NCBI GenBank assembly: GCA_022482495.1
Contig: JAKVPA010000003.1
Location: 62,001-126,000 of the forward strand
Reading direction: 5' to 3'
Origin: Sphaerochaeta sp.
Lineage (GTDB): Bacteria; Spirochaetota; Spirochaetia; Sphaerochaetales; Sphaerochaetaceae
DNA: 64,000 nucleotides
Part shown: positions 1-20,092 of the stretch, piece after piece
Position numbering within the stretch: position 1 is the stretch's first letter
Layout: the number at the start of each line of letters is the position of its first letter
Made by a program: the position numbers and the translations under genes
Notes under the pieces: generated by a model
The model's input: the letters and a program-made list of their open reading frames with translations, nothing else
Database searches by the model: none
Told to the model about the DNA's origin: nothing

Positions 1-2134
1 TATCCATCATATTCAGGTTTCCTTTCCCGTCATTAAAATCCGTAATATAGGGAAGCGCCACCATTGTGGAATAATGATTGACAAAAACGGAACCCAAAAC
101 GTTGAAATCAATCTCATGGTTCAACGCGTTGAGATATTCGCCTTTGTCATAGAGAGGCCAGCGAAGTACGAGCGGAGCTGCCTGGAATACCGCGTATCTG
201 ATCATATTGGAGGAAAGAATTTGGCCATACCCTACTTCACCTTCCTGGAAACGTGTATTCTTCCACCATTCGCTGTATCGCCCATTTATTCCTTTTGCGG
301 TGACATGTTCCATCCCGGCAAAAGGCCCTTCCACAAAATCCCATGAATAATCAGGATAGGGAGGATTCAACGTCACCACATCATACCCTTCTGATGAGAA
401 AATCTCAGGAAGCAACGTGATGGCTTCATTCTGTTTCTGCTGAAGGGTCTTGTCCGTCCGCTTCTGCATCTTGATCGGAGTATAATCATACCCCCCATAC
501 AGTGTTGGGGTCCCATAGAGGGTATGGCTGCCAAACGAAATCGCATTCGGATAATAGGTAAAACCGGTGAATTGCTGATACAGCAACGGGTCTTCCTGAA
601 AAATGTACGGAACATATCCGCTGATGGCCCGGTCCAACATGATTACCAGCACATTCTTCCCGGTACGGGAAAAATGGAACATCGGCTCAAACTTGGTATC
701 ATCACTGATGGCTGTCTCTGTCTCCTCTTGGTGGGATAACAACTCGCGGTACTTCTGAGAAATCCCATGCATCCGAACCACGGACTGGGCGGAAACTGCA
801 ATCATAAGAATCACGAGGACAAAAGAGATGGCCCGAGAAAACCTCCGATGGAACAGCCAGGAAAGCAGACAAAAAAGTCCCACAAGCAGTCCAAGATTCA
901 CATAATTCTTGATGCCTTGCATTTTCATCAAGTCACTATTCGCAAAGCCCAAATCCGTAAATACGGTCCCATAATTCCCGGGGAACAAGAAGGTATTCAT
1001 CAAGGCTCCAAGGAAAACAACCCCGGAAAACACGACAAAGAACGGCTGAATCTTTTTGGGAAAAAGAAAATACAAGCACACCGGCCAGATGATGAAGCAC
1101 CCCAACGCCTGGAGCATGGTGATCCCCACAAAATCCAACGGACTGGCATAGGGTCCCATGTTGGCGAATTCCGTGGGGGAAGTGGAGATCAGATTCAAGG
1201 GTATCAGCGCGCCAATCAGCAATGTTACGCCCAGCATGCCAAGGAAAAACAACAGGAACCGGAGTCTGTCATGATCACATAACCACCCTACACAAGTGGC
1301 CGAATACCACTTGGCAAGACGATACCAAAGGGGGATAAGAAAGATGATCAACGAAATCGCGTAGATGGCATAAATCTTCCATTTCTGACCGGTCCCATGC
1401 TTGGAATAATATCCACTGATCCCCAGACACACCACACAGAAAATCCCGTACAACATGCGAAGCGGATGCCGCATCTTGTAAAAAATGTTCTTTACCAGCG
1501 ACAGAATATTGTTCATCGCCCAGTAAAGGACCAATCCCGCGGGAGAGGCGTACAGTATCACCAGAAAGACGGCGGCAAGAGCGTAAATCTGCACCTTCTC
1601 TCTTACCGGATGTCCTTTGGAGTAGATCGCCCCGCTGATGCAGTTGGCGACTGTCATGATGATGGGAAGCAGATTGAACGTCCGGCCCGCGATGTTGATC
1701 ATCCCATCCGGCGCGCCGAGATCTTTGATGAACCAGAATGACAATCCTTTCAGATCAGGATGATTGGACAGGAACAGGTATGCGGCGAGGAAGAACGGAA
1801 TCTGGATCAAAATGGAGAACGAAGAGCGGAGGGCGTAAATTGGCTTATAATCACATTCCCGGTAATAGGCAGACAGGAGCATGAACCGTTCGTCCCCTTT
1901 GAACACCTTCCGGATCTTCTTCACTTCCGGCGCCATTTCTGCTACTTTGTTTCGTTCCACTTCCTGCCAATGCTCGGCAACCATATAAATGGGAAGCGTG
2001 CACAACGTGACGACGAAGCTCAAACCGATAATCGCGACTCCGAAATTATCAGAGACCCGATACAAGGCGGTGAACGCAAGCTCGATCACCTCGGCGATGG
2101 GGAAAATAAACAAGGTATATAAAACGCTTCCCAT
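1..2134 (-). CDS. YidC/Oxa1-like domain fused to an alkaline-phosphatase-superfamily (LTA synthase/EptA-like) domain; 3' end outside window
   Basis: The frame is open from ATG at 2134 to the window edge, about 711 residues. Residues 1 to about 230 read like the YidC core: a start in a membrane helix, a charged stretch with KKIRKVFKGDERF, then LIQIPFFLAAYLF and a helical hairpin ending SPAGLVLYWAMNNI. About six more hydrophobic segments follow. From about residue 495 comes an extracytoplasmic domain starting VLVIMLDR, with a likely metal-binding Asp501, and GSHTLYGTPTLYGGY, in which Thr538 sits where EptA-type phosphotransferases have their nucleophilic Thr. The rest of the metal site lies outside the window. 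The start is one base after the stop of the CDP-glycerol transferase gene, with a GGGGAGG ribosome site, so the two are translationally coupled. The job is inferred: transfer of a phospho-alcohol group onto a surface polymer. The YidC part may be structural, not an insertase. Confidence 0.8.
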   Translation of the reverse strand, partial: MGSVLYTLFIFPIAEVIELAFTALYRVSDNFGVAIIGLSFVVTLCTLPIYMVAEHWQEVERNKVAEMAPEVKKIRKVFKGDERFMLLSAYYRECDYKPIYALRSSFSILIQIPFFLAAYLFLSNHPDLKGLSFWFIKDLGAPDGMINIAGRTFNLLPIIMTVANCISGAIYSKGHPVREKVQIYALAAVFLVILYASPAGLVLYWAMNNILSLVKNIFYKMRHPLRMLYGIFCVVCLGISGYYSKHGTGQKWKIYAIYAISLIIFLIPLWYRLAKWYSATCVGWLCDHDRLRFLLFFLGMLGVTLLIGALIPLNLISTSPTEFANMGPYASPLDFVGITMLQALGCFIIWPVCLYFLFPKKIQPFFVVFSGVVFLGALMNTFLFPGNYGTVFTDLGFANSDLMKMQGIKNYVNLGLLVGLFCLLSWLFHRRFSRAISFVLVILMIAVSAQSVVRMHGISQKYRELLSHQEETETAISDDTKFEPMFHFSRTGKNVLVIMLDRAISGYVPYIFQEDPLLYQQFTGFTYYPNAISFGSHTLYGTPTLYGGYDYTPIKMQKRTDKTLQQKQNEAITLLPEIFSSEGYDVVTLNPPYPDYSWDFVEGPFAGMEHVTAKGINGRYSEWWKNTRFQEGEVGYGQILSSNMIRYAVFQAAPLVLRWPLYDKGEYLNALNHEIDFNVLGSVFVNHYSTMVALPYITDFNDGKGNLNMMD

Positions 2135-2135
2135 C

Positions 2136-3377
2136 TTACTTAGCCTCCCCACCTATAAGCTGAGACTCCACGCTCACCAGATAGTCAACAACCCGGTTTG
2201 CCGCTTCACCTGGGTACATCCATGCCTCTTGTTTCGCCGCATGCCGTGCGTTTCTCAATTCCACTCTGTCAGAAGCGTGTTGGATGACATCCTTGATATG
2301 GGGGAAATCGGAAGGTTTCACCTCGATTCCAAATCTGCGAACCGCCTCAAACTGCCACATTTCATCCTTCACGTCCCCGGCATCGTACGGCCGTTTGTCA
2401 AAATCCTGCGCTACATAGATTCACCGGTTTGTCGTACAGGAAAGTATAGTCAAAGATGATCCCTGAGAAGTCGCTGATCATGATATCCGCACCTGCTCAG
2501 CGCGCCACTGTTGTCACTTCAAAATCCCATCTGACGTTTGGTTTCCCCCTATATCGTTTCTGAAGCGTAGTCCAACAATGCGCTTTTCAACCAATCGGGA
2601 TTGGGGATGCGGACGGACAATGACATCCCAACCGCTTTTCGACAAAGGATCCAACAAGGAAATCCCGTAGAGGGAAAGCAACGCGGACGGTCCCCAGGAG
2701 GGAGAAACGAGGACGGTAAAGGGATGGGATTTCTTCTCCATAGCGTCCCGCTTTTTCGAGAGGACATCCAGATATGTACATCCGACCACCACCAAGTCTT
2801 TGGGAGGAAGATGCCGTTTCTGCTCCAGATACTGAATGTCCTTTTTCTGGTATTCCCCGGTAAGCAACACCGCATCAAAGAAATCCAATCCGAACAGACG
2901 GTATCCGGTGGCATCGCTCGGGGCGTGAAGAATATGCACGTATTTCTTCACATCCTTGGAACGTTTGAGCTGGTAGACATCCAACGAGGGCGTGGTCATC
3001 AACACCACGTCAGCCCTGAGAAAGTTCAGTTTGGCGTACGCTTTGTTCCCCACCCCGATGTATTCGGCATGGACATGGTTCCACGACTTCTTCAGGACAG
3101 GATCATCTTCACTCCCTGTATAGTAAGCAAGAGGAAGTCCCCTGCTCTCAAATTTCTCGACCACCTGAGAAAACTCATTGAAGTATTGGCGTCCCTCACA
3201 GTAGATGACATACGGGACTGCGGGACGATTCATCTCCGCTCTGGCCTCTTTGGAGGAAAAGGTCATTTTCAATTTGACAAACAACGCGCGAAAAGAAAAA
3301 TACGCCGTCGCGGCGATCCCCACCACCACTGAGAACAGCATACTCCCCGTTCCGGGATCAATATACCAAACAATCAT
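2136..3377 (-). pseudogene. CDP-glycerol:poly(glycerophosphate) glycerophosphotransferase family, with at least five frame breaks
   Basis: The start is ATG at 3377, beginning MIVWYIDPGTGSMLF with one membrane helix. The N-terminal 280 or so residues are in one frame (VILMTT-like core, HILHAPSDATGYRLFG, VVGCTYLDVL, VLVSPSWGPSALL, VRPHPQS). The C-terminal end is in another frame and finishes at 2136. Between about 2585 and 2420 the protein can be rebuilt only by changing frame five times. The rebuilt segments include VRWDFEV, DNSGALSR, the family motif ADIMISDFSGIIFDY, and YVAQDFDKRPYDAGD. The family polymerises or primes glycerol- or ribitol-phosphate from CDP-alcohols at the inner membrane face, best known from Gram-positive teichoic acids. 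Reading-frame content is kept between breaks, so this is either a recent pseudogene or a badly sequenced patch. It lies between the coupled YidC-like fusion gene and an Omp85-like gene. Confidence 0.75.
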
Positions 3378-3430: not shown

Positions 3431-5170
3431 TCAGAAAAAGAAATATAAACCAATGTACAATTCGTACTCAACAGAACCAGTCCCGTTTCCGGTAAGTTTT
3501 CGGTATACGTCTTCCATATTGAACCCCAAAGACGCCCGGATGGGATAAGCGGGATAGCGGTCCAGAATCACCACGCCTTCCATGCCCGCGCCAACCAACC
3601 AGTTGTCATTTCCGTTGTTCAATCCATTGACATCATTGACCAACGCGATATCAACAAACGGAATCGCATACGAATGGGCAAAATTCCGAAGCGTGATGAA
3701 CGAGGTGGTGAAGTTGCAGTTCAGCACCAACGCTCTCTTCCAAGCCTCTCCCTTAACATAAACATAATCATTGTTATCCCGAATACCGCGAATGTATTCC
3801 GACACATAGTCGTCGGTGTTACTTGGGAGGAAATAATATTTCTTGGAAGAAAGGATGCCAGAGAGCCGGAACGAAGGATTGAACCATGAGGTGGCAAAGG
3901 GAAACCATGAGGTACGAATTTCCAGCCATTGGTAATCGATATCACCCGGACGATATGGCCGACCTTCAAATGTTCGTTTGGGGAAGATGGCCATGTTCCC
4001 ATGGATCTGAAAATCCAACCCGGTACGGAAATTCCCCTTCCAGTTGATGGAAGAACGGGAAAGCGTGCTGTTGAATTCCCAAAACAACTCATACAGCAGA
4101 GGATCATCCGGATACATCTTGTTATGCAAAGTTATTTCATTATACCAATTGAACCAGTCCCGAACGTTGAACCCTGTTCCTATCGTGCCACTGATATCCA
4201 TCCAATCAAGAATACCGTATGCTCCCTTTGTTTCCAGCGAAAGCCGCGTATCGATCTGTTGCGTTCCGATTTTGAATCCATGGTAGCGGAAATGGGACAG
4301 GGTATAGAAATAATAATCCGACGTATTGACGTCATACGCAATGGATTTGTTGTACAGGGAAAAGCCTCCGAGGCTCAGCGCAAACGGCCCCCAATTGAAC
4401 GAGTTCCCTATTTGGTTAAAATACCAATCGCCTTGCAAATCAGCAGTTTTTGGATGCAGGTACAACCACATATTCATGGAAAGCGCCTTGTGGTCGATCG
4501 TCATGTTCTGAGGATTAAAATTGAAATAAAAATATGAGGATGTGGGATCCTGCATATTGTAGGAATACTGGGTCGCCAGATTAAGCCGGACTTGCTTTCC
4601 CAATGCCAGTTGACTGAGATTCATTTCTCCGTAGTACGTCCCTTCCTTCCAACCATTTCCCACGTCATCCTGGAACGCGCTGTCGGGAATGGTGACGTTT
4701 CCCGCGAGATACAGATTGGAAAGCTGCCCAAAGAGATTCTTATTGTATAATTTCAGTCCCACACGCGTGCCAATATTGGAATCGTACTTTCCATACGGGA
4801 ACGGAAGGATGGAGGACGCATCCACAATGATAAATGTGACCTGATAGAACCGGATGCCACGAGACTCGTTGGTATACACAAGTGCGTACTCCACCTTGCT
4901 GAACACCCTGAGGTTGACCAACTTCTGGACTTTGGCATCCAATGCCGCCCGCATTGCTTCTTCCGAAGGAAAGATTTCATCACCGGCAGGAACGATCCGG
5001 GAACGAAGGGCGCTTTCCGTCGTTTTGCCGGTAATGGTGAACGAATAACCGGCGATCATGAATTTCTGACTGGATGGAGCGGAATCACCTACTGCGTTTT
5101 GTTCGTGAGCCCACATGGAGATGCTCACAAAAAGAAGCAAGAGCACAAGTATGATATGTCTTTTTCTCAT
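3431..5170 (-). CDS. Omp85-superfamily-like outer-membrane beta-barrel protein
   Basis: The start at ATG 5170 is preferred because AAGGAG lies six bases upstream and the protein then opens with a clean signal peptide (MRKRHIILVLLLLFVSISMWA). Residues about 40 to 130 look like a single POTRA-type module (KLVNLRVFSKVEYALVYT, then VTFIIVD). This is followed by the Omp85-style entry into the barrel (PFPYGKYDSNIG, KLYNKNLFG). The remaining 400 or so residues alternate short aromatic and polar strands and end in YIGLYFFF, a C-terminal aromatic insertion signal. BamA itself has five POTRAs, so this is a shorter relative, more like a TamA/TpsB-type or lineage-specific member. Its place between Wzi-like barrels and polymer-synthesis genes suggests a role in placing surface polymer or its proteins in the outer membrane. 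Confidence 0.7.
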   Translation of the reverse strand: MRKRHIILVLLLLFVSISMWAHEQNAVGDSAPSSQKFMIAGYSFTITGKTTESALRSRIVPAGDEIFPSEEAMRAALDAKVQKLVNLRVFSKVEYALVYTNESRGIRFYQVTFIIVDASSILPFPYGKYDSNIGTRVGLKLYNKNLFGQLSNLYLAGNVTIPDSAFQDDVGNGWKEGTYYGEMNLSQLALGKQVRLNLATQYSYNMQDPTSSYFYFNFNPQNMTIDHKALSMNMWLYLHPKTADLQGDWYFNQIGNSFNWGPFALSLGGFSLYNKSIAYDVNTSDYYFYTLSHFRYHGFKIGTQQIDTRLSLETKGAYGILDWMDISGTIGTGFNVRDWFNWYNEITLHNKMYPDDPLLYELFWEFNSTLSRSSINWKGNFRTGLDFQIHGNMAIFPKRTFEGRPYRPGDIDYQWLEIRTSWFPFATSWFNPSFRLSGILSSKKYYFLPSNTDDYVSEYIRGIRDNNDYVYVKGEAWKRALVLNCNFTTSFITLRNFAHSYAIPFVDIALVNDVNGLNNGNDNWLVGAGMEGVVILDRYPAYPIRASLGFNMEDVYRKLTGNGTGSVEYELYIGLYFFF

Positions 5171-5244
5171 CCTCTTCTCCTTGTACAAGACTTCGTCAGC
5201 CTATCCCACAGAAGAAAAACAGTCAATTCTGCACAAGGAAATGA

Positions 5245-6999
5245 TTACCAAGAATACCGGACACTTCCCACGAATTGCGCGTCAAACGAAAATCCATCCA
5301 AGGTCTGAGAATCCGCGACATAGGTGGTTTTCCCGATCAAATCCATCCTCCCGATCAAGGTAAGATGCCAGGGTTTCCACGTGTAGGTGGATTGGAAGGA
5401 AAGCATATTCGTCCAAAGCAGGTCATCGGAGAGGAACGTCGCGGCCTTTACCTCTTCCCAGGAAGAAAACATGTTGATCTCCCCATGCACCATGGAGAAC
5501 AGGGTCCCTTCCAGTTTCAGATTTCCCTTACTCCAGACATTACGCCATTGCAACGCCAACGCATCACCACCATAGGGGAAACCCAAGTAATCATATAAAT
5601 AGTAATACGCGTTCTCATCAACACCCCTCACCAATCTGATACGCCGTTGGGCAATGATAAAGTCAATCCCTTCCCGTCGATACAATGCGGGAAGCGTCCC
5701 AACCAGTTCCACGTCGGTGGTATAGAGGCCGCCTCCCAATTCCTTGGCATGCCGCGCTCCAAGGGAAAGCCCTCCGGCGGCAGGATCGTTGTTTCCACCT
5801 TCCTCATTAATGGCTGTCGCCTGATCCATACAGAATTGGGCATATAAGCTCCACCCAGGCGTGAACGTATAGTCCAATTCCACCGTAAGGAGGGAATTAA
5901 ACAGATTGGAATCGGAGAGATTATGGAAGATCAAGGAAGGATTGAGGTAACTGGCATTCAACGACCCATTGCTGTTGTAATACATCAACGCCTCGGATAT
6001 GGTGAATTTCACCTTTTCCCACCAAGTGAACTCCAACCGATGACTGAGCATCATACGGATACCCGTTTCAATTCCATTCCACGTTGTACCTGAATAATTC
6101 ATTGGGTACGGTGTATAAAATCCATAGACTGTATCAAATTTGAAGTTTTGGGAAAACAGGCTGAACCGGAGATAATCCATGAAATCCAGATGGTTGTCAT
6201 ACATGAAATTCCCGATCCGCGAGTTTCCCCAAGAGAGCTTGTCCCTGCTAAGATTGATGTTCCAGTGGTTTCCGCCGAACGAAAACACCGCCCGTTTTGG
6301 CCATGTGTACTCCCAGTCATTGGGACTGAGCATCACATTTGACTGGAACATATGCTGGTACAGGGAAATACGCAAACCAGGAAAGCTTGGAGTAATGGTT
6401 CCGACTAAATCCGTATTTTCTGTTGTGTAGGCCCCAACATTCTCCGTTGACGATGCGTTGAACGTATGAAATGCGGCATCCTCTCCATTTTGAGAATCGT
6501 ACGCCTGCCGTGCTGTCAGCCCATACCCATACTGTGCTTCCATTCCCAGATATACGTGATCAAAGAAACTGGCGTCCAATCGGGCGCGGAGCATTGGCTG
6601 ACGATCCGTATAGCTGTAGTTCCAATCCAAATACGACGTGTAATCTTCCGTATTGGTATGGAAATACCCTTCCAGATTGGCATCCAGATGCAAACTGAGA
6701 GAGGTGGAATCATCCAGCTTCCATTTGGGCTGCTCGTCAAGCGTCTGCATGACTCGGTCACGGATACGCTCAGCCTCAGGAGTCAATATCGCGGGGAGAC
6801 GATCCATGATCATCCGGGTTTCGGTGACCGTCCACGGCCGACTCCAGGAAGCGGCAGGGAGTCCTGTCAGGAGGTAGAGCGTGTCGACATCGTCATACAG
6901 GGGATTTGACAGCGGAATGATCTGCTGGGGCGTCGCGGCCCAAAGAACTGTGGCGGAGAGCAACGATATAACCAGACAGACCCGCACGATTCGTCTCAT
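5245..6999 (-). CDS. Wzi-like outer-membrane beta-barrel protein
   Basis: The protein has 584 residues with a signal peptide (MRRIVRVCLVISLLSATVLWA) and a strong GGGAGG ribosome site just before ATG 6999. After a short helical N-terminal part (PLYDDVDTLYLLTGL), it is a long beta-strand-rich region. Recurrent hallmarks shared with the proteins at 42443-44095 and 44092-45907 are SRDKLSWGNSRIGN, SHRLEFTWW, YLNPSLIFHN and YLGFPYGGDAL. It ends in VRYSW, an aromatic C-terminus suited to barrel insertion. The Wzi family are outer-membrane lectins that anchor group 1 capsule, so surface-glycan binding is the likely role, although this subfamily is divergent. It is about ten bases downstream of the next Wzi-like gene and so co-transcribed with it. 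Confidence 0.7.
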   Translation of the reverse strand: MRRIVRVCLVISLLSATVLWAATPQQIIPLSNPLYDDVDTLYLLTGLPAASWSRPWTVTETRMIMDRLPAILTPEAERIRDRVMQTLDEQPKWKLDDSTSLSLHLDANLEGYFHTNTEDYTSYLDWNYSYTDRQPMLRARLDASFFDHVYLGMEAQYGYGLTARQAYDSQNGEDAAFHTFNASSTENVGAYTTENTDLVGTITPSFPGLRISLYQHMFQSNVMLSPNDWEYTWPKRAVFSFGGNHWNINLSRDKLSWGNSRIGNFMYDNHLDFMDYLRFSLFSQNFKFDTVYGFYTPYPMNYSGTTWNGIETGIRMMLSHRLEFTWWEKVKFTISEALMYYNSNGSLNASYLNPSLIFHNLSDSNLFNSLLTVELDYTFTPGWSLYAQFCMDQATAINEEGGNNDPAAGGLSLGARHAKELGGGLYTTDVELVGTLPALYRREGIDFIIAQRRIRLVRGVDENAYYYLYDYLGFPYGGDALALQWRNVWSKGNLKLEGTLFSMVHGEINMFSSWEEVKAATFLSDDLLWTNMLSFQSTYTWKPWHLTLIGRMDLIGKTTYVADSQTLDGFSFDAQFVGSVRYSW

Positions 7000-7009
7000 A
7001 TTCCCTCCC

Positions 7010-8782
7010 CTAATAGTACAACTTCACCCCAATCGTTCCATACAGGCCGAATACAGGTGACGCCCAAGCCCCGAGTTCTGTGGTATATCCATATTTGTTC
7101 TGATCATTGCTCTCATTTGTAATCGGTCTGTCCCATTCCGACTGGAAACGAAGAGATCCACTAATTGTCAGGGGGAACGATGAGAACTGTTTCTCAAGCC
7201 CAAGCTCAAGAGAAAGCTTGTAGTTGCCAATGAAAGCGAAGAAATCCTCATAGGCATACAAATCGTCACTGTCGTAATCAAAATCCGTACTCAAATTTGA
7301 TTTTCCATACTGATAACTTCGCTGCTGCAACTTCACCGTCGTCTTACCGGTCAGCCCCTCAGCGAGGCTTGTCCTCAGGCCAAGCAGATACTCGATGGTA
7401 TTCTGGCTAAGCGAATAGCCGAGAGCCTGTCCTTTATTGATATATGTCGTGGAATAATCAGCATCGTCATCATCCTTGTTGAGATAGTGGGTATATACAA
7501 ATGGGGAAAGATAGGTTATTTGGGCGGTCAGTGTCGTAAAGGAACCCACATTCAGAGGAATATCCATCCCACCCTGTAGTCCAATCGCATTCCGTGGATT
7601 AACCAGGATCTTCCCGAATCCCCCATATGCGCTCACCTCAGTGGCGACAAAGGAACCGTACATCCTCGCAATCCCAGGAAGCGTATATTGGAAATCCATG
7701 GATGCGATGCAATTATCACGGTCGCCATCAGCACCCTGCACGATATAATAGACAGAAAACGGATTGAGGTACCCGAACAGCAACCGACGCCGATACACCA
7801 CCCCTTCACTTACCCCAAGGGTAAAATGTGGCGTGACATCCCATTCGACACGGTGTGCGGAATAATTATTCTGATAGGTAAGGGATTCCGACCTGGTATA
7901 ATCAACAACCGTCTCATTCCCATTATCCGTCATATTGAAAACGCCCAACGATCCTGTCACAAACCCCATCCGAAGATTCGGGGCAAAGGAGAAGATGGCA
8001 TCCACTCCATCAAAGGAACGGGCGGTTCCTGAGAGCAACAGGTTACCCAAACCAGGACCCCAGTCTCGCGGGATGGAGGCAAATCGGACGATCAAGCGGG
8101 AATCCAAGAAGCTTCCCACGAATTCGGGAGACATGGAATTGCTGTTGGCGAATCCCGCCATGGGCAATGATTGGGCGGTTCCTTCTTGTACCCATTTGAG
8201 GTACTGGTAAAATCCTTCGGCGGGAATGGAAAACTCACTGGGGAGGAACACGCTGTCATCCAGACGATCCACGCGGAAGGTAAAATCCATCGAATAGCTG
8301 AGGTGGGTGCCCAAATCACCTTTCAGGTAGGCAGTGACGGCATTGCGGCTGTCGTAGGCGAACGAGGGATTTTCCAACAAGGTGCCACCGGTTTCCTGAA
8401 CCGCGAAACGCGCGCCAATCGTTACGTTTGACTGAAATCGTTCGTCGTTGAACCGATAAAACCCCTGACGCCACACATTTTGGTTGGGAATTTCATTTGA
8501 ACCATACTGCCGTTCCAACTCATTGATCCAGAACCGGACATCACTCCGTTCTTTTTCCGTGATCAAATCTGACTGGGAGATCTCTTCAAGATATCTGATC
8601 GCGTCATTCGCCGTATAAGGACGTATATTGGGAATCTGAGAAATCACGCCTTTCGCGACGGCATTATCCATGATCTGGTACACGCGTGAATCGACCGGAA
8701 CGGAAACGTATCTCGCAGCGAAAAGCGTTTCAGCGCTTATGGCAAGCACGATACCACACAGAAATAAAAACGTTCGCTTCAT
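7010..8782 (-). CDS. Capsule assembly Wzi family protein
   Basis: The protein has 590 residues and is the first gene of the minus-strand surface block, about 70 bases downstream of the promoter at 8858-8887. It begins with a signal peptide (MKRTFLFLCGIVLAISAETLFA). An N-terminal helical part (VPVDSRVYQIMDNAVAKG, RPYTANDAIRYLEEI) resembles the start of Wzi proteins. The barrel contains the family signature around RDWGPGLGNLLLSG and FDGVDAIFSF, then HRVEWDVTPHFTLG and LFGYLNPFSVYY. It ends in GVKLYY. Wzi is a monomeric 18-stranded outer-membrane protein that binds nascent capsule at the cell surface. The assignment is firmer here than for the three relatives in the window because the WGPG-type motif is intact. 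Confidence 0.78.
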   Translation of the reverse strand: MKRTFLFLCGIVLAISAETLFAARYVSVPVDSRVYQIMDNAVAKGVISQIPNIRPYTANDAIRYLEEISQSDLITEKERSDVRFWINELERQYGSNEIPNQNVWRQGFYRFNDERFQSNVTIGARFAVQETGGTLLENPSFAYDSRNAVTAYLKGDLGTHLSYSMDFTFRVDRLDDSVFLPSEFSIPAEGFYQYLKWVQEGTAQSLPMAGFANSNSMSPEFVGSFLDSRLIVRFASIPRDWGPGLGNLLLSGTARSFDGVDAIFSFAPNLRMGFVTGSLGVFNMTDNGNETVVDYTRSESLTYQNNYSAHRVEWDVTPHFTLGVSEGVVYRRRLLFGYLNPFSVYYIVQGADGDRDNCIASMDFQYTLPGIARMYGSFVATEVSAYGGFGKILVNPRNAIGLQGGMDIPLNVGSFTTLTAQITYLSPFVYTHYLNKDDDDADYSTTYINKGQALGYSLSQNTIEYLLGLRTSLAEGLTGKTTVKLQQRSYQYGKSNLSTDFDYDSDDLYAYEDFFAFIGNYKLSLELGLEKQFSSFPLTISGSLRFQSEWDRPITNESNDQNKYGYTTELGAWASPVFGLYGTIGVKLYY

Positions 8783-18291: not shown

Positions 18292-20092
18292 ATGTCAGAT
18301 TTACAGAGTTTTGCCGATTTAGGATTGTCGGAACAGACCTTGCAGGCCCTCAAGGAAAAGGGCTTTGAGGAACCCACCAAAATACAGGCCGCCTGCATCC
18401 CCCTGCTGTTGAAGAACAAGGTGGATGTCATTGGGCAGGCACAGACCGGAACAGGAAAAACCGCGGCCTTCGGGCTTCCCATCCTGGAGATCGTCGATCC
18501 TTCCGACCACGATGTCCAGGCGTTGATCCTCGCCCCCACCAGGGAACTGGCCGTTCAGGACGCCGAGGAGATCAACAGCTTGAAGGGAGACCGCCACTTG
18601 GAAGTCGCCGCCATCTACGGCGGGGCGTCCATGGGATTGCAGTTCCGCATGCTGCAACGAGGCGTCCAGGTGGTCGTCGGGACCCCAGGGCGTGTATTGG
18701 ATCACCTGCGCCGGGGCACGCTTCGGCTGGACAAGCTGAAGTTCATGGTGCTTGATGAAGCGGATGAGATGCTGGACATGGGATTCATCGACGACATCGA
18801 GGAAGTGCTCAAACAGACTCCGGCTGAGAAGCGGATGCTCTGTTTCTCCGCCACAATGCCCGCACCCATCATGCGCCTTGCGGAGAAGTTCATGCATGAT
18901 CCGGAAATCGTACGGGTCAAACAGGAATCCATCACCCCGGTGCTGACCGACCAGGTCTATTTCGAAGTGCGGGAGTCAGACAAGTTCGAGGCCCTCACCC
19001 GGATCATCGACATGGAGGATAACTTCTACGGCATTGTTTTCTGCCGTACCAAGATCCAGTGCGATGAGATCGGACGGAAGCTGCAGGCCCGCGGGATATG
19101 ACGCCGAGGCGCTCCATGGAGATCTCTCCCAGCCGGCTCGTGAAGCGATCCTACGCAAAATGAAGGAGCATTTGATCTCCATCGTCGTGGCCACCGACGT
19201 CGCCGCCCGTGGCATCGACATCCAGAACCTCACCCATGTGATCAACTACTCGCTCCCGGAAGCCCCGGAGGAATACATCCACCGGATCGGACGTACCGGA
19301 CGAGCGGGAAAATCAGGAACCGCCATCACGTTCATCACCCCGAGGGAATTCCGCAAACTTTCCTTCATCCAGCGGGTCGCAAAAGCGGAGATCCGGCGTG
19401 AGGAAGTTCCCGATCCCTCTCAGGTGGTGACGGCCAAACGGGCACGAATCCTGTCAGAGATGATGAACCGTCTCTCCGACGAGCACGACTTCTCCGTCTA
19501 TGATGGCATCGCTGAACAGCTCCTTGCCGACCATGACCCCAAGGAAGTGGTCTCTTCGCTGTTGGAATACTGCTACAAAGACGCGCTGGATGAATCCAAG
19601 TACCATGATCTGGATACCGTCGACGCGCGCTTTGATCGTTCTGGGAGGTCGGACCGCAAGGACCACAGACGCAGACGCGACGACGACGAAGCCCCCAGTG
19701 AAGCGAATGACGGCTACACCCGGCTGTTCATCGCCCGTGGTGAGAAGGATGGCCTGGACAAGCAGACGCTGACGGATTACCTGACCGAACAGGTGGGCGC
19801 CAGAGAATCGGATTTCCAGGATGTCACCGTCCAGGACGAATTCAGTTTTGTCTCCGCCCCGCTTGATGTGGCGGAGCGTGTCCTGAAAGCGTTCGCCACC
19901 AAGGATCCCTCCCAACGACCCATCATCACCAAAGCGCGGCCGGACAACCCCAACGGCAGGCATCTTGCTCGTCGTGGTGGCGGCAGACGCAGGTTTGACG
20001 ATGAACCGTTCCGCCCCCGTTTTGGGAGCCGTGATGACCGCCGTTCCGGCGGGAAACGAAAAGGGAAAAGCAACGCCGAAGGAAAACGTTGA
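18292..20092 (+). CDS. deaD: DEAD-box ATP-dependent RNA helicase, DeaD/CsdA type (one frame break)
   Basis: The helicase motifs appear in order: Q motif region (FADLGLSEQTLQALKEKGF), AQTGTGKT, PTREL, GGAS, TPGRVLD, DEAD, SAT, then after the break VVATDVAARGIDI and HRIGRTGRAGKSG. At 19094-19096 an extra G in a GGG run stops the frame after LQARG; removing it gives LQARGYDAEALHGDL, the conserved helicase sequence. Downstream lies a DbpA-type RNA-binding domain (RLFIARGEKDGLDKQTL, FSFVSAPLDVAERVLKA) and a basic Arg/Gly-rich tail (RRGGGRRRF, KRKGKSN). The repaired length, about 600 residues, is normal for DeaD. The role is RNA unwinding in ribosome assembly and mRNA turnover. Confidence 0.93.

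Follow-up and report, generated by a model that had tools for sequence, protein, structure and literature searches.

Several described systems resemble parts of the locus reported here. The YidC/Oxa1/Alb3 insertases score above the cut-off for PF02096 and have a five-helix fold with a cytoplasmic hairpin. The positive residue in the groove of YidC has been called strictly conserved, and S. mutans YidC2, which carries W234, cannot do without the arginine unless this Trp is replaced (PMC8920935). LtaS, EptA, MCR-1, and PbgA, which are mostly phosphotransferases, have an outward catalytic domain after their membrane helices, with a single-metal pattern of Asp, Thr, Asp, and His, plus one more conserved His. 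Members of the EptA subfamily have conserved disulfide cysteines. The TagF/TarF-type CDP-glycerol glycerophosphotransferases belong to the fold family PF04464. Finally, T. denticola has a Pnt cluster (Ppm-Ppd-PntC/AEPT), for which the steps after cytidylyl activation by PntC were stated to be unknown (Rice et al., PMC6697681); the main text of that paper makes no mention of YidC, sulfatase, or CDP-glycerol genes.

We analysed a stretch of 64,000 nucleotides from Sphaerochaeta sp. (contig JAKVPA010000003.1), referred to as the window. At its left edge, a gene that joins a YidC-like part to an LtaS/EptA-like part (the fusion) lies next to a CDP-glycerol-transferase-like gene (the partner). The features are as follows (positions in the window unless a contig is named).

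1..2134, minus strand: YidC-LtaS/EptA-like fusion gene; the window covers residues 1-711 of 911 and lacks the 3' end
G000:C3:61399-64134: complete fusion gene, 911 aa (the window is C3:62001-126000)
1478..2044, minus strand: YidC/Oxa1 core, residues 31-219 (PF02096 at 4e-24, AlphaFold2 model, and Foldseek)
2006..2008, minus strand: codon of Thr43, the groove-arginine position of true insertases (alignment to E. coli YidC)
716..1465, minus strand: about seven further transmembrane helices, residues 224-473 (homologue model; placement in the window inferred by alignment)
1..682, minus strand: N-terminal part of the LtaS/EptA-like (alkaline-phosphatase-superfamily) catalytic domain (PF00884, Foldseek)
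632..634, minus strand: codon of Asp501, predicted metal ligand (invariant, 140/140)
521..523, minus strand: codon of Thr538, predicted nucleophile (invariant, 140/140)
2136..3377, minus strand: partner, a membrane-anchored CDP-glycerol:glycerophosphotransferase-like protein (tblastn; intact homologues as queries gave up to 57% identity)

A first-pass annotation, made from the window alone, had read a YidC core and an EptA/LTA-synthase-like domain in one frame. This reading was confirmed when the missing 3' end was obtained. The minus-strand frame runs from the ATG at 2134 across the window edge into the genome continuation, ending at G000:C3 61399, and its 911 residues contain no stop. No frame break occurs between residues 230 and 500; the frame is open there and conserved in many genomes. 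PF02096 (60KD_IMP) scored 85.9 bits on residues 31-219 (cut-off 35), and PF00884 (Sulfatase) matched residues 756-804 at 5.7e-06 (26.3 bits, cut-off 25), the latter in the full-length protein only. The NCBIfam domain model yidC_oxa1_cterm also scored above its cut-off on the fusion protein, which flags a likely misannotation.

The fusion was found in 23 of the 139 genomes of the same family; most copies are full length, and most share 32-45% identity. In a scan of named genomes, at least 563 relatives were confirmed; the best 80 of these are full-length or nearly so and come from Treponema, other spirochaetes, and Clostridia (Lachnospiraceae, Oscillospiraceae, Butyrivibrio). At the phylum level, a best E of 1e-40 or lower was called a fusion (canonical YidC matches at ~1e-15 to 1e-26), and 117 of 392 Spirochaetota genomes had such a match. 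The fusion also occurs in a Brachyspira-like family (f30; the family label is a guess). An assembly artefact or a chance frame was rejected, since the full-length fusion recurs in many independent genomes. Viral copies were not found in one scan (viral_contigs) with P0002-specific peptides. The fusion is widespread and apparently undescribed: the annotation had known of no described function for the combination, and searches of open-access literature turned up neither a function nor a description. Tandem copies are common, with a maximum of six at one locus. That locus (L110, Clostridiales) has the six copies arranged around one partner gene, which suggests copy-specific acceptors.

Homologues of the partner matched PF04464 at 5e-10 and 1.2e-15. 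The partner has an N-terminal hydrophobic anchor and a YIDPGTGS-type motif; it differs from TagF/TarF, of the same fold family, in having this anchor and in travelling with the YidC fusion and CMP-phosphonate genes. Its stop codon (TAA, 2138-2136) is separated by one base from the ATG of the fusion at 2134. Hence, the translational coupling claimed in the annotation holds at the sequence level, but the transferase is frameshifted as assembled (~2420-2540, with three in-frame TGA codons). The cytidylyltransferase-CobD gene of the window's genome, described below, is also frameshifted in this assembly (L003:9203-9230). As a neighbouring sugar transferase (L003:6971-7341) and a helicase elsewhere in the window (18292-20092) also look frameshifted, these frameshifts are probably assembly indels rather than decay.

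When the linkage was surveyed across genomes, as the annotation had proposed, it proved strong and lineage-wide. A PF04464 protein lay within five genes of the fusion at 71 loci (70 of 92 loci after removal of repeats). For the 71 adjacent same-strand fusion-partner pairs the median gap was 0 bp, and 59 of them had a gap of 30 bp or less. With the homologous partner protein as query, the family genomes (n = 139) comprised 22 with both genes, 1 with the fusion only, 1 with the partner only, and 115 with neither, and the Spirochaetota genomes (n = 392) comprised 112, 5, 0, and 275, respectively; these genomes are phylogenetically correlated rather than independent samples, so that Fisher values overstate independence, although within genera the two genes are distributed patchily. 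The two genes co-occur in the Brachyspira-like family even with several fusion copies far from the partner. The fusion-partner pairing is near-obligate.

The YidC-like part (residues 1-235) was modelled alone by AlphaFold2 (pLDDT 86.6), because a Foldseek search with the whole model gave only catalytic-domain matches among the 50 listed. The model has a five-TM fold, with a long TM helix carrying a cytoplasmic helical hairpin and four more TM helices. Its sole strong Foldseek matches were the YidC proteins of B. halodurans and E. coli (for B. halodurans YidC, 3wo7, TM 0.71 and rmsd 3.6). The hairpin fold expected from the annotation is thus predicted by AlphaFold2 and matched by Foldseek.

The groove position (Thr43, equivalent to R366 of E. 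coli and R73 of S. mutans in the alignment to E. coli YidC) was compared among 140 proteins, each 840 residues or longer, encoded at the collected loci, a few of which are the same contig twice. Neither Lys nor Arg was present at this position in any of the 140; the residues were T (56), S (42), N (35), Q (4), and G (2), with one gap. The position of E. coli Y517 and S. mutans W234 was Trp in all 140. By the logic of S. mutans YidC2, a domain that lacks the groove charge and keeps the Trp should not work as an insertase. The YidC-like domain is therefore probably not an insertase, judging from its sequence, as the annotation had supposed, and the idea that the fusion is a second insertase is disfavoured by the loss of the charge. 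Compared with the YidC/Oxa1/Alb3 proteins, the fusion also lacks the first TM and the periplasmic P1 domain and belongs to a phosphotransferase system. A long branch separates its YidC-like part from canonical YidC in the tree. The window's genome has a separate canonical YidC of 601 residues, with Lys at the groove position.

Two genomes (G401 and G491) encode the YidC-like part on its own, in a gene of 229 aa that overlaps the CDP-glycerol-transferase-like partner gene by one base.

L140:11216-11905: stand-alone YidC-like gene, 229 aa, overlapping the partner gene
L144:913-1602: stand-alone YidC-like gene, 229 aa, overlapping the partner gene

The G401 protein has Asn at the groove position, and its locus also encodes a multi-helix protein of 721 residues that includes a sulfatase-fold domain. 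In the tree the G401 protein groups among the fused copies (98/92), which suggests that the stand-alone gene is the product of a later fission; the split gene as the ancestral state was rejected on the same grounds. Since the YidC-like part is retained as a gene of its own next to the partner, it probably has a role, and perhaps the stand-alone protein works with the partner. A further locus (L153) that looked split has a single copy interrupted by a frameshift, and was excluded as evidence.

Could the YidC-like part still act as an insertase or a chaperone that holds nascent membrane proteins or lipoproteins, while the catalytic domain adds phospho-alcohols to them? PptA, which modifies pilin with a phospho-alcohol, offers an analogy. 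The YidC fold is intact, including the cytoplasmic hairpin, and the polar positions N164, N208, N209, and Q111 of the YidC-like part are conserved among the 140 homologues, both of which speak for such a role. We nevertheless consider it quite improbable, as the groove charge is absent from all 140 proteins, a canonical YidC is also present, the genes linked to the fusion are those for glycans and CDP-alcohol transferases, and the YidC-like part, where it stands alone, is coupled to the partner and not to a protein substrate.

The full-length structural model is that of a T. bryantii B25 homologue, 39% identical to the window protein (pLDDT 88.8, pTM 0.80). In it, seven helices (5 + 7 in all) separate the catalytic domain from the YidC core, and not the six further membrane segments of the annotation. 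Shorter homologues (846-860 aa, 40-60 residues fewer) lack the first two of the seven; as two helices are lost, the catalytic domain stays on the same side. Both the helix count and this loss agree with a catalytic domain outside the membrane. The best PDB matches of the model in Foldseek include PbgA, LtaS, phosphonate monoester hydrolase, EptA, and MCR-1.

Asp501, Thr538, His716, and Asp779 are present in 140 of 140 full-length homologues, and His780 in 139. The annotation had therefore numbered its candidate metal ligand (Asp501) and nucleophile (Thr538) correctly. By the LtaS/EptA motif, we take the five residues to form a single-metal site with a Thr nucleophile and a substrate-binding His. 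By helix count, the fusion is a YidC core followed by an LtaS/EptA-like enzyme, and it shares with LtaS, EptA, MCR-1, and PbgA both the order of helices and a probably outward domain and the pattern of catalytic residues. In contrast to them, the fusion alone has a complete YidC core in front, its metal ligand 1 is Asp and not Glu, and it has a near-obligate CDP-alcohol-transferase partner. No conserved Cys was found in the catalytic domain among 21 aligned homologues, so the conserved cysteine pairs of EptA are missing. From sequence and model, the catalytic domain is predicted to be a phosphotransferase that uses Thr538 and one metal. The Pfam name Sulfatase, and the phosphonate monoester hydrolases among the fold matches, would also fit a hydrolase (a sulfatase or phosphodiesterase) that strips surface polymers, with the YidC part as a mere anchor. 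This we find very improbable: the Asp/Thr/Asp/His pattern with His716 is that of LtaS and EptA, the helices are placed as in membrane phosphotransferases, and the pairing with a biosynthetic transferase is near-obligate.

Genes for activated donors were found near the pair. In some genomes these encoded a PEP mutase that carries a fused cytidylyltransferase-like domain, a phosphonopyruvate decarboxylase, and a PntC-AEPT fusion, a representative of which matched the crystal structure 6PD1 at 5e-267. Other genomes have a CobD/HisC-like PLP enzyme joined to a MobA-like nucleotidyltransferase; others again have an iron alcohol dehydrogenase, or a LicC-like nucleotidyltransferase that stands alone. 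The partner was present in 43 of the 44 loci with a cytidylyl module, and of the 49 genomes with both PEP mutase and fusion, 26 have PEP mutase no more than 5 kb from the partner. The PntC-AEPT of one genome (G295) is identical to the crystallised Tde1415 (6PD1), which identifies this genome as T. denticola. Its partner-fusion pair lies ~20 kb downstream of PntC-AEPT in the same polysaccharide region, and the distance from Ppm to the partner is ~22 kb. Thus, the activation genes of the Pnt clusters flank many fusion-partner pairs; unlike the Pnt clusters, the pair also occurs with non-phosphonate modules. PEP mutase was found without the fusion in 21 of 70 genomes, and the fusion without PEP mutase in 68 of 117. 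Because of these mismatches, phosphonate cannot be the sole cargo.

In the window's genome, PEP mutase is absent and a CobD-type cytidylyltransferase module lies directly downstream of the fusion.

L003:7554-9384: nucleotidyltransferase-CobD/HisC-like PLP enzyme fusion (TIGR01140 is best in a homologue, below cut-off)

From its sequence, this protein is a candidate one-protein route to a CDP-amino-alcohol. With no PEP mutase and this module downstream, a phospho-amino-alcohol is the likelier cargo here. The group that is moved is probably aminoethylphosphonate in T. denticola and others, and a phospho-amino-alcohol in the window's genome. Some loci have LicD genes, and LicD could do some of the transfer.

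The annotation had proposed that a lipid-linked polymer is presented to the catalytic domain; the neighbourhoods point instead to a small phospho- or phosphono-alcohol. In a teichoic-acid-like version of the polymer idea, the partner would make poly(glycerol phosphate) from CDP-glycerol and the fusion would extend or transfer it outside, like LtaS. Such a system would suit a partner in PF04464 and a fusion with LtaS among its best fold matches, yet the visible activating modules make, by homology, phosphonate, amino-alcohol, and LicC-like donors, and polymer export genes are not consistently beside the pair. We judge it unlikely.

We consider it fairly probable that the fusion and its partner form a two-protein machine that decorates surface glycans with cytidylyl-activated phospho- or phosphono-alcohols. 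In the first step, assigned from homology, the cytidylyltransferase module beside the pair would make the activated donor. This would be CMP-aminoethylphosphonate, made by Ppm, Ppd, and PntC-AEPT, in T. denticola and many others, and probably a CDP-amino-alcohol, made by the cytidylyltransferase-CobD-like PLP fusion, in the window's genome. At the inner face, the partner may then transfer the phospho- or phosphono-alcohol to a membrane lipid. Next, the YidC-like domain, with a polar and uncharged groove and with no insertion of protein, may dock the partner, receive the lipid product, or both, and help the polar head group outward. Lastly, as predicted from its active site and fold, the outer LtaS/EptA-like domain would transfer the group to an exported glycan by means of Thr538 and one metal. 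In this scheme we infer that a lipid is the acceptor of the partner and the donor for the fusion, as well as the direction of transfer and the glycan as final acceptor. The YidC fold would serve as a lipid conduit or a dock, a role as plausible as the membrane scaffold of the annotation.

A bolder version of the two-protein machine, which we put forward only tentatively, is that the YidC fold, once a protein insertase, has become a lipid-handling or head-group-flipping module, and that the pair is the missing attachment machinery for phosphonoglycans in spirochaetes and clostridia. The module would receive the lipid-linked phospho- or phosphono-alcohol that the CDP-alcohol transferase makes at the inner face, and pass it to the phosphotransferase fused to it. 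If true, a YidC fold would be in use outside protein insertion. The pair is a two-gene candidate for the phosphonate steps after activation; being nearly always paired, present in T. denticola and T. bryantii, and a combination of transferase with membrane folds, it is directly testable.

Some other neighbours were recorded. Genes similar to GmhA, HddA, and HddC/GmhB (heptose activation) lie beside the fusion at ~14 loci (L062, L071, L074, L138, and others), and heptose-containing glycans are possible acceptors. In one group of loci (L083, L091, L098, and L116), genes for FtsX-like permeases and a LolA-like protein come after the pair, and this neighbourhood resembles lipoprotein sorting. Upstream of the pair, positions 3431-8782 of the window encode three proteins in a row, of 584-590 aa, which have signal-peptide-like starts and no Pfam match, and are probably outer-membrane barrels. 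Relatives of one of them (5245-6999) are encoded near the fusion in some other spirochaetes.
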